From IMG/VR virus record IMGVR_UViG_3300027896_000041, positions 1 to 61,128 of that record: 61,128 nt of DNA; one strand, written 5' to 3'. The notes under the pieces are model-generated. The model had not been told where the DNA came from. It did no database searches and worked only from the letters and a program-made list of their open reading frames with translations. Shown here piece by piece: positions 1,257-7,807 of the stretch (position 1 is its first letter; every line of letters begins with the position of its first letter). Source of the DNA: a virus. The translations under genes were made by a program, and so were the position numbers.

Positions 1257-2063
1257 TTAATAAAATTTAATTATCTGAGAAGTTGGAATTAAAACTTCTG
1301 ATCTGATTTTTTGAATCCATTCTTCTGAATTCTTTTGAAATACATCTTCTTTTATTCTGATCAATCTATAATCATTATCTAAACACCAACTTTCTAATGC
1401 TTTATCTTTATCTTGTTTAGATTTTAATTGATCCAAGATATCTTCAAAATGCCACACACCATCATATTCTATACAAATTTTTAGCTTATGAGAATATAAA
1501 TCTCTTGATATTCCAGAAATATCTTTATATGATAAAGATCCACCATAAGTCCATTCTTCATTAGGAAATGAAACTATGAACCAATCTCTTAATTTTCGTT
1601 CTCCTATAGAAGTAAAACGAGGATTTGTAGCTAAACATTTTTTAGAATATTCTGGATCTTTCCATAAATCTTTTGTAAATTCAGATAATGACATCCCGTT
1701 CTTGCATATACTGTTTTTAATCTTTATCTTATCTTCTTCGGTATGCGGTCTGGAATTTCTACATGATATAGAACAAAAGAATTTTTTCTTTTTTAAAAAT
1801 GTCTTATCTCTTCTTTCAATTATAAATGGCGTTTTGCATTTAAAACATTCTACAAGATAATGTTGCTTAATACCATACATTTTATTATTGGTTAAGAAAG
1901 CAGTTTCTCGTGATTTATCTCTTTGTTTTTGAATATCTAAATTTGGATTTTTCTTACACCATCTAACATGATTGGCGAATTTAGATCCAGAAACACCTTC
2001 AAAATATTCATTACAATAATTGCATGTTCTATTTTCAGTGTTATTAAAAGTTCCAGTTTTCAT
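1257..2063 (-). CDS. Homing endonuclease, zinc finger plus Vsr/EDxHD-like nuclease
   Basis: An N-terminal zinc finger (CNYCNEYF with a distal H and C) is followed by a CxxxCxxPF region. The C-terminal nuclease has the segment ICIEYDGVWHFE, a downstream D and K, and LIRIKEDVF, the pattern of Vsr-like (EDxHD) homing endonucleases. The ATG at 2063 is preceded by GGAG; a TTG 12 nt upstream is part of that site. It begins 58 nt after the end of the intron-bearing tmRNA and could act on that locus, but this is inference. Confidence 0.8.
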   Translation of the reverse strand: MKTGTFNNTENRTCNYCNEYFEGVSGSKFANHVRWCKKNPNLDIQKQRDKSRETAFLTNNKMYGIKQHYLVECFKCKTPFIIERRDKTFLKKKKFFCSISCRNSRPHTEEDKIKIKNSICKNGMSLSEFTKDLWKDPEYSKKCLATNPRFTSIGERKLRDWFIVSFPNEEWTYGGSLSYKDISGISRDLYSHKLKICIEYDGVWHFEDILDQLKSKQDKDKALESWCLDNDYRLIRIKEDVFQKNSEEWIQKIRSEVLIPTSQIIKFY

Positions 2064-2078
2064 ATTAATCTCCAATTT

Positions 2079-2088: not shown

Positions 2089-2120
2089 TATAGTGGAGAT
2101 GAATAGAGTCGGACTATAAA

Positions 2121-2757
2121 TGGTGGAGGTGAGGGGACACAATATTCCGGATTTTTCAATTCGGTGTGGACTATTCCTTCATCCTTTGTTAAAAGGAGGA
2201 GAGCATTTATGAATTTCTTCATCTTAGTATTCCATAACTTTTGTTTTAGGAACCTATAAGTCTCTAGACGGCTTACTTCTTTCGAATTTACCGTACGGCG
2301 TTAGCATAACTAAACGTTTTAGCGTTCACCGTATGAGCTCTCTTTATCACTAAGCATTACTACTTAGGTCAACCATTTTGATTGAACCCCTGTCCTGATT
2401 AGAAGCAATTATACTTTCATTTACATAGTTAGCCCGTTGTTCTAATTCCTCTATCCCGCATAACACGGCTAGGAAATCAGGGTCGAAACAGACACACCCC
2501 ATCTGATACTTTATCAGCTAAGCATAGATTCTTTGAATCTCAAGTCAAAGAGCAGAGGACGTCTCTTGTCGCCACCTTGTGTTTACGCTACTCCCGATTA
2601 CTAAGGCAATCTAGTCGGTTTCACGGGTGCCTAAATTAGGCAGCCATTTTGTATTGATTGTTATCAATTACTTTTTCGATAGATTTTTAGGTGGCCAACT
2701 ATCATCCACCCTATGCAAATATAACAACTTAACTACCAGTCGAAACCAATCACCCCC
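2121..2757 (-). ncRNA. ssrA: tmRNA (ssrA) interrupted by a group I intron
   Basis: The 5' end GGGGGTGATTGG pairs with 3' CACCTCC-A-CCA to form the acceptor, including a G3-U70 pair, the alanine identity element of tmRNA. The tag frame ends in two alanine codons and TAA, inside the hairpin GCCTAA-TTTAGGC. By alignment with the resume site after AAAAATCTATC it would encode EKVIDNNQYKMAA. A GGTGG/CCACC helix precedes it, and the segment before the T arm (CTAACTATGTA) resembles other tmRNAs. Exon 1 is 2381-2757 and exon 2 is 2121-2137; they join to a 7-nt T loop closed by AGGGG/CCCCT. The role is rescue of stalled ribosomes and tagging of incomplete proteins. No SmpB gene is seen in the window. 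Confidence 0.92.
2138..2380 (-). other. Group I intron in the T loop of tmRNA
   Basis: This 243-nt insert sits between T-loop positions 59 and 60. The 5' exon ends in U and pairs as UCAAU with the internal guide GUUGA, giving the conserved U-G at the splice site. The intron ends in G. It contains GTCTAGAGACTTATAG (P7 5' side) and GGAATAGTCC (P7 3' side), typical group I core elements. There is no reading frame inside it, so any homing enzyme must come from elsewhere; an endonuclease gene lies directly downstream. Confidence 0.85.
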
Positions 2758-2765
2758 GAAAAATA

Positions 2766-3062
2766 TTATGCTATCTTAAATAATTTAGGAACATTTCTTT
2801 TAACTACATTACTTAATGCAGTTGGTGCTTTAATAGCTGAAGTTATTCCACTTCTAAAAGGAACAACTTTTCCAGCTGCTGTTCTAATATTTGCACCTGT
2901 TCCCAATTCTAATTTTCGATGTATAGCTGGATTATTTCTTACATATGCTGCAGTGGCAGGATCATCAAGAGTTAATTCCTCTACAGCATCTTCTGCGATT
3001 GCATCAAGAGTATCTTCATACTCATCTAGTGCTTCACATACTAAAAGATATTTTTTATTCAT
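2766..3062 (-). CDS. Small protein with leader-like N terminus
   Basis: The ATG at 3062 is preceded by TTGGAG at good spacing; an earlier TTG is that ribosome-binding site. The 98-residue protein begins MNKKYLLVCEAL and continues with an acidic helix. The first 11-12 residues resemble the starts of four other small proteins here (around 48017, 52719, 53065, 53339), ending V-x-E-A, which recalls T4 capsid-targeting sequences. A candidate internal virion protein. Its stop lies 8 nt from the tmRNA 5' end. Confidence 0.72.
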   Translation of the reverse strand: MNKKYLLVCEALDEYEDTLDAIAEDAVEELTLDDPATAAYVRNNPAIHRKLELGTGANIRTAAGKVVPFRSGITSAIKAPTALSNVVKRNVPKLFKIA

Positions 3063-7341: not shown

Positions 7342-7555
7342 TACTTCTCCTCTATCGTTACTGTACCTTGCAAAATTCCAAGTGTAGATTTCTCAACGAA
7401 TTTATGAATTTTCGGTTCTTCTGTTTCATTTCTTTTAGTTGTCAGCATCCAGAGTTGATTTTCTTTCCAAGTACAACTCTCTAATTTCATACCACGATCC
7501 AATTGAACGGTAAAAGATCCACTGCGGCACCGCCACGTATACCTTCGCCCTATTC
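7341..7555 (-). pseudogene. Truncated copy of the prepilin-like gene
   Basis: Read in one minus-strand frame this region encodes FTVQLDRGMKLESCTWKE and TLGILQGTVTIEEK, near-identical to the C-terminal part of the protein at 8046-8351. The N-terminal prepilin signal is absent, the frame runs back into the end of the 83-residue gene, and no convincing start codon is seen. It is best explained as a remnant of a tandem duplication; an internal ATG (GMKLES) could allow a short product. Confidence 0.7.
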
Positions 7556-7807
7556 TTATTCTATTAATGGAATCAACTCGTCGCCTACTATTTCTGATAC
7601 CAAATAAAAATCACCATCACCATTCCGTTCTTCTAAATCTTTAATGACATTCTCTTCGGTATAATCTTCTTCATCACATTCATCACAATCATATATTCCA
7701 AGATCGTCAAGCAAGCTTAAAAGATTTTCTGCGTCATGCATTTCAAGAGTATCTGTATGGCATCCACCCCTGCTGCTTGATCTATTATAAACAATAAATC
7801 TTTTCAT
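7556..7807 (-). CDS. Unknown acidic protein
   Basis: 83 residues with a strongly acidic middle (YDCDECDEEDYTEEN). It lies between the two copies of a duplicated gene pair. No family recognised. Confidence 0.7.
   Translation of the reverse strand: MKRFIVYNRSSSRGGCHTDTLEMHDAENLLSLLDDLGIYDCDECDEEDYTEENVIKDLEERNGDGDFYLVSEIVGDELIPLIE

Follow-up and report, generated by a model that had tools for sequence, protein, structure and literature searches.

A phage tmRNA gene with a T-loop group I intron next to a predicted homing endonuclease of a tmRNA-adjacent clade

Organisation of the locus

The window, namely, the whole stretch of DNA analysed in this study (61,128 bases), is a virus contig whose genes resemble phage RNA polymerase beta subunits, topoisomerase II, helicase and a tail/baseplate protein, and the record was taken as phage on the basis of these genes. 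Bacterial contamination as a source was ruled out by the RNA polymerase subunits, the topoisomerase and the tail gene. An intron-containing tmRNA gene and a downstream endonuclease gene make up the locus, with the following features:

1257..2075, minus strand: predicted free-standing homing-type endonuclease gene (phrog_559, AlphaFold2 model, Vsr and I-Bth0305I structure matches, tmRNA-adjacent clade)
2121..2137, minus strand: tmRNA 3′ exon U-CCCCU-CACCUCC-ACCA, 17 nt (sequence, 3′ pattern, ARAGORN)
2138..2380, minus strand: group I intron, 243 nt, with −1 U and omega G (RF00028, nhmmer with an intron profile, P1–P9 pairs)
2256..2262, minus strand: P7 5′ strand GACUUAU with one unpaired U; 3′ strand AUAGUC, 2174-2169 (pairing in relatives)
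2337..2342, minus strand: P3 5′ strand GAGAGC; 3′ strand GCUCUC, 2204-2199 (covariation in relatives)
2369..2373, minus strand: internal guide sequence GUUGA, which pairs with exon UCAAU (2385-2381) to form P1 with U-G at the splice site (pairing)
2381..2757, minus strand: tmRNA 5′ exon, 377 nt, with acceptor, tag, pseudoknot region and T loop UUCAAU (RF00023, acceptor, ARAGORN)
2636..2665, minus strand: tag frame DNNQYKMAA and stop, resume codon GAT (GAU in RNA) (ARAGORN on joined exons)

The tmRNA gene

The whole feature lies on the minus strand (2757-2121). The tmRNA covariance model RF00023 matched positions 2750-2379 (63.9 bits, cut-off 47, E 1.2e-22), and the covariance check proposed in the first-pass annotation thus agreed with its claim of a phage tmRNA. 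The sequence provides an acceptor of 7/7 pairs (GGGGGTG, 2757-2751, with CACCTCC, 2131-2125), including the alanine-type pair G3 (2755) opposite U70 (2127), an encoded ACCA at the 3′ end (2124-2121) and a T stem of 5/5 pairs (AGGGG, 2391-2387, with CCCCT, 2136-2132). After joining, UUCAAU (2386-2381) and U (2137) form a T loop of 7 nt, so that the perfect G3-U70 acceptor and the 7-nt loop described earlier are both borne out. ARAGORN reported a 394-nt tmRNA with the tag DNNQYKMAA on the script-joined exons, matching the earlier prediction of a tag ending in KMAA, and reported no tmRNA on the unspliced gene. The score above the cut-off, the G3-U70 alanine acceptor, the CCA and the tag frame with its stop place the gene in the tmRNA class. 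No match to SmpB was detected anywhere in the 61-kb record, which may be a fragment; host SmpB could serve the phage tmRNA.

tmRNA genes were reported in 402 of 18,146 phages (PMC9004378), 79 phage tmRNAs were counted in PMC11915505, and megaphages with one tmRNA are noted in PMC8172020. The two-piece tmRNA of phage Melnitz, as described in PMC9004378, is likewise phage-borne with its own tag, whereas the tmRNA in the window is one-piece and interrupted by an intron.

The group I intron

The intron interrupts the tmRNA between T-loop nucleotides 6 and 7 (UUCAAU/U), with splice sites at 2381/2380 and 2138/2137 on the minus strand; the insert length of 243 nt, both splice sites, the −1 U and the omega G are all as first annotated. 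The list of open reading frames contained none of at least 60 aa in the intron interior. The group I model RF00028 reached 33.3 bits on the intron, below the cut-off of 50 (E 6.3e-7 in 411 nt; E 2.2e-8 in the record-wide search), and the same cut-off was missed by 11 of the 17 records searched, 10 of them other IMG/VR records. The group I assignment was therefore not rested on this model. When 64 bacterial tmRNA introns from the genome-contig scan, with the window left out, were turned into a profile, nhmmer matched it to the window solely at 2379-2144 (91.7 bits, E 8e-28); the proposed check of the insert with group I models accordingly failed at the RF00028 cut-off and succeeded with the tmRNA-intron profile.

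The helices of the window intron are formed by 5/5 (P1), 5/5 (P2), 6/6 (P3), 7/7 (P4), 6/6 (P7), 6/6 (P8) and 6/7 (P9) pairs, and the P1 with U-G at the splice site and the P7 strands agree with the earlier description. Helices were checked in an alignment of 69 introns, consisting of the window and 68 relatives among the matches listed. In the relatives, P2 was paired in 337 of 340 cells (192 with changes on both sides), P3 in 397 of 402 cells (224 with changes on both sides) and P7 in 390 of 402 cells, with no both-side changes; P4 also showed covariation. P8 and P9 were paired in just 57% and 63% of the relatives' cells, which we attribute to the alignment of variable regions. A chance fold was ruled out by the helix covariation. 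Group I structure is thus represented by P1 with U-G, P3, P4, P7, P8 and the omega G, and the presence of a tmRNA gene with a group I intron in the window is regarded as practically certain.

The guide fits the phage's own loop, exon UUCAAU facing GUUGA, in contrast to the bacterial loop UUCGAU (PMC11915505). Among the matches listed, the guide GUCG was found in 79 of 83 introns behind UUCGAU exons, and a wobble-pairing GUUG already occurs in L136 and L215, two introns of gammaproteobacterial type. Given the intron structure and the self-splicing reported for the Clostridium botulinum tmRNA intron (PMC2729099), the window intron very probably self-splices in the cell.

Intron relatives in bacteria and viral contigs

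The first intron-form bacterial tmRNA is reportedly to be credited to Williams 2002, as cited in PMC11915505 and PMC2729099. A total of 883 unique intron-form tmRNA genes, all interrupted in the T loop and mostly at the same loop position, are described in PMC11915505, in line with the first-pass remark that T-loop introns of ssrA are known in some bacteria. The window intron is like these bacterial forms in its main T-loop site (nt 6/7), −1 U, omega G and similar length (243 nt, the average of the bacterial founding set being 293), and differs in its phage record, in the loop UUCAAU with its matching guide and in the free-standing endonuclease gene just downstream. In genome contigs, a scan with the 3′ pattern yielded at least 118 stretches, at least 72 of them with a 5/5 T stem and at least 63 also with a 7/7 acceptor. 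The profile homology of 91.7 bits, the tree placement and the T-loop position indicate that the window intron is, as judged by sequence, of a known kind, the T-loop tmRNA intron family.

The intron tree covered introns of 200–360 nt with T arm, apart from L077, L098, L114, L128, L075 and L120. In this tree, the window intron was placed among gammaproteobacterial tmRNA introns (support 98/88 for 11 rows), on a long branch (0.75) and with bootstrap unsettled, and the viral L125 intron fell just outside the group (100/99 for 12 rows). Methylophaga was nearest by identity among the matches listed (70%).

The same 3′ pattern occurred in viral contigs in at least 119 stretches, at least 16 of them with a 5/5 T stem. 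RF00023 was run on 20 viral records, comprising those 16 together with L032, L069, L113 and L027; by coordinate reading, a tmRNA match lay directly upstream of the pattern in 17 of the 20, and the cut-off was exceeded in 8. In L011, L093 and L120 the T-stem pattern was present and a full RF00023 match upstream was absent. The L120 stretch (7491-7713, minus strand) combines a T arm with a group I pattern (RF00028, 28.5 bits), lacks an upstream tmRNA match and may be a divergent tmRNA. Grouped by sequence likeness, intron-form tmRNA genes in IMG/VR contigs represent at least about ten lineages, the viral status of contigs other than the window being IMG/VR's call plus a few phage-type genes. The first-pass annotation had singled out an intron-form tmRNA in a phage as striking; its presence stands, and it is not a lone case in phages.

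LAGLIDADG-like ORFs were detected inside the introns of L016, L030, L107 and L122, some merely near the threshold; Pfam was the basis for L016, L030 and L122. The T-loop intron of L119, which is close to a terminase gene, contains an ORF that shares 37% identity with a gene standing free in L011, 13 nt beyond the tmRNA T-arm pattern, and both are putative endonucleases. In the phage collection, blastn found nothing for window positions 2100-2780 and no full match for the intron-form L030, L125, L016, L034 and L122 or the bacterial L132, so that no isolated phage with the intron-form layout was found by these searches. An 18-mer spanning the 5′ splice site had no match in the viral contigs.

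The adjacent endonuclease gene

The endonuclease gene starts at TTG 2075 or at ATG 2063 behind GGAG, and the ORF 2063-1257 begins 57 nt beyond the tmRNA; it is absent from the first-pass annotation. Zinc-finger-like cysteines lie in the N-terminal part and a Vsr/EDxHD-like nuclease domain lies in the C-terminal part. The protein matched phrog_559 in PHROGs (E 6.5e-13), whose label, HNH endonuclease, is contradicted by the predicted Vsr/EDxHD-like fold. The AlphaFold2 model (pLDDT 83.9, pTM 0.48) aligned over residues 149-272 with Vsr (1cw0, Z 11.8) and I-Bth0305I (3r3p, Z 9.0), and Foldseek alone gave weak results (best E 0.03). E159, D205, H209 and D224 are among the invariant columns in an alignment of 15 sequences and, we infer, form the catalytic set; EDxHD enzymes are described in PMC3943268. 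Pfam at E 0.001 detected nothing in the protein, DUF559 matched it weakly, and a sequence search of solved structures returned weak matches, most of them to zinc-finger proteins and a few to antibody light chains. By its modelled fold, the neighbouring ORF is a predicted Vsr/EDxHD-type homing endonuclease. It resembles I-Bth0305I and Vsr in the C-terminal nuclease fold and zinc-finger-like N-terminal cysteines, and differs from them in its low identity (20% and 10%, respectively), its different N-terminal part and its position beside a tmRNA gene.

A clade of endonuclease genes beside tmRNA genes

Relatives of the endonuclease in viral contigs form 16 distinct loci in addition to the window, after L005, L248 and L249 were merged with L004, L250 with L006, L251 with L007, L254 with L008, L262 with L009, L256-L260 and L270 with L255, and L264 with L263. 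Eleven weak matches (L271-L281) were kept out of this set. A tmRNA gene lies beside or around the endonuclease gene in all 17 distinct loci, which are related, so that the counts are not independent events. The tmRNA exceeded the Rfam cut-off in 12 of them (the window, L247, L004, L007, L009, L253, L255, L261, L263, L265, L267 and L269) and was called by ARAGORN in L008; the remaining four adjacencies depend on a score below the cut-off in L006 (30 bits, with a clear acceptor and tag) or on reading by eye in L252, L266 and L268. As a control, Rfam RNAs over the cut-off were found at none of 17 loci (10 relatives of another homing-type gene of the record and 7 weak matches), and ARAGORN found no RNA gene near any of the 11 weak matches.

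The clade is hosted by standard, permuted, tagless and intron-form tmRNA genes and occurs on both flanks, which points to repeated insertion of the endonuclease gene; in L252 the two halves of a permuted tmRNA flank it. In our assessment the clade is likely to be specialised on tmRNA genes. Most members adjoin intronless tmRNA genes, and L247 and L004 combine an intronless tmRNA with an ordinary TTCGACT loop, so the endonuclease can be tolerated in the absence of an intron. The endonuclease gene lies at the tmRNA 5′ end in L263 and L269 and upstream and divergent in L255, and the target thus need not be the T loop. Long tags of about 26-30 residues were observed in L263 (4491-4846) and L269 (4490-4843) by ARAGORN and in L265 (3349-3976) by eye. 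The tmRNA match of L007 (5843-5733, minus strand, 50.8 bits) is about 110 nt long and leaves no room for a usual tag, similar to the tagless form of phage DS6A mentioned in PMC11915505.

The layout of the window, an intron-form tmRNA followed by the endonuclease, recurs in L265, whose T-loop intron (RF00028, 91.1 bits) is of a different type and reads like the L034 type; its exon UGCAAU pairs with the guide GUUGC, as read by eye. In L265 the endonuclease stop codon is immediately followed by 15 bp that duplicate the 3′ end of the tmRNA; the duplicate begins at T-stem position 61, a single nucleotide away from the intron site. An 11-bp flanking repeat and, by eye, a T-arm intron were found in L266, a displaced tmRNA 3′ end in L268 and a 29-bp flanking repeat on the 5′ side in L269; no flanking duplication was found at the window locus. 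T loops lacking UUCRA (AGUCGGAG, AUGCGAUG, GGCAGAG, GGCGGA and GGCAGUA) occur in five carriers that have no T-arm intron (L006, L009, L252, L261 and L268). Such loops were possibly recoded to escape cutting.

Discussion

The overall best explanation of the locus, with a probability of about 0.7, is a functional phage tmRNA that carries an intron, next to an endonuclease that targets tmRNA genes. The intron would fold and excise itself from the precursor, thereby restoring the normal T arm, the tmRNA would stay functional, and the insertion would be near neutral. The intron has no endonuclease of its own, and the downstream gene is a member of a clade whose insertions are at tmRNA genes, in most cases on the T-arm side. 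In co-infecting phages whose tmRNA gene lacks an intron, its product probably cuts that gene in or close to the T arm; repair from this genome would copy intron and endonuclease gene together, and the intron, by splitting the target, would shield the resident site. The analysis establishes the tmRNA gene, its intron, the family membership, the neighbouring gene and the association of the whole clade with tmRNA, whereas splicing, tmRNA activity, the cleavage site and co-transfer are what we infer. The layout suggests that the two elements spread together as mobile elements.

Such collaborative homing, where intronless copies of a gene are cut by an endonuclease encoded next to an intron-containing copy, is known from psbA of cyanophage S-PM2 (PMC6083498) and is reviewed in PMC3984707. 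F-CphI beside psbA resembles the window in the combination of a group I intron with an adjacent free-standing endonuclease, whereas in the window the target gene is tmRNA, the nuclease is Vsr/EDxHD-like and not Endo VII-like, and cleavage is putative. We regard it as an even chance that this phage practises collaborative homing directed at the T arm of tmRNA. PMC6582537 and PMC5966550 report HNH genes within tRNA arrays, in some cases together with tmRNA; PMC4383926 contributed nothing on phage introns, and none of the titles listed from the open-licence literature dealt with homing endonucleases directed against tmRNA. The less expected part of the locus is the endonuclease beside the tmRNA gene, the intron itself being of an already known kind.

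A broader version of this scheme is offered tentatively, at slightly less than even odds. It holds that the clade is dedicated to phage tmRNA genes, that gene ends can be rebuilt by duplication, and that residents escape cutting through an intron (the window, L265 and L266) or a rewritten T loop (L006, L009, L252, L261 and L268); the T arm would be a contested homing site and the intron one part of a device for self-protection and transfer. The grouping of the window intron with gammaproteobacterial tmRNA introns (98/88; Methylophaga, 70%) and the absence of an intron from most clade members are also what would be expected if the intron were a plain resident from a bacterial tmRNA and the endonuclease homed on tmRNA independently, the pairing being coincidence or the result of turnover, as argued for the adjacent endonucleases of other loci in PMC10448857. 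We consider this possible and somewhat doubtful, since the combination recurs with introns of another type in L265 and, by eye, in L266, and since the duplicated end of L265 begins so close to the intron site.

The idea, put forward in the first-pass annotation, that the intron might enable the phage to re-programme ribosome rescue has no support in these data. A switch with timed or conditional splicing, in which the phage tag reprogrammes rescue in infection, would suit a tmRNA that looks complete with its own tag, and roles for phage tmRNA are proposed in PMC9004378; however, numerous tmRNA genes of bacteria have introns of the same kind at this position of the loop (PMC11915505), the record, possibly a fragment, has no SmpB match, and the findings agree with a mobile element next to a homing-type endonuclease. 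A regulatory switch in the intron was rejected because no riboswitch or other Rfam element exceeded the cut-off there, and the idea is held to be very unlikely. Decay of the tmRNA into an inactive copy whose intron no longer splices could be read into the modest tmRNA score (63.9 bits), the RF00028 score below the cut-off and the long intron branch (0.75), yet the 7/7 acceptor, the 5/5 T stem, the open tag and the intact P1–P9 pairs make it highly improbable.

If the homing scheme outlined here is true, tmRNA joins the conserved genes parasitised by phage homing endonucleases, and phages become a plausible route of spread for the T-loop introns long known from bacterial tmRNA. The locus would also be an example, open to direct testing, of convergence between an intron and a free-standing endonuclease on a single site of a gene for a non-coding RNA.

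Other elements in the record

Another homing-type gene (5043-4273, minus strand; DUF7487 and DUF559, phrog_3339) overlaps with its 3′ end the start of a tRNA-Asn (4287-4201) by 15 nt, and the ten scanned relatives of this gene had no RNA over the cut-off nearby. A second group I intron was observed on the minus strand, with an RF00028 score of 42.4 bits at 13655-13469, below the cut-off of 50. Joining 13679-13644 and 13461-13422 on that strand gives a 76-nt tRNA-Thr(UGU) with a 182-nt intron after anticodon position 36; the same split tRNA (13679-13422) was called Gln by ARAGORN with introns allowed.
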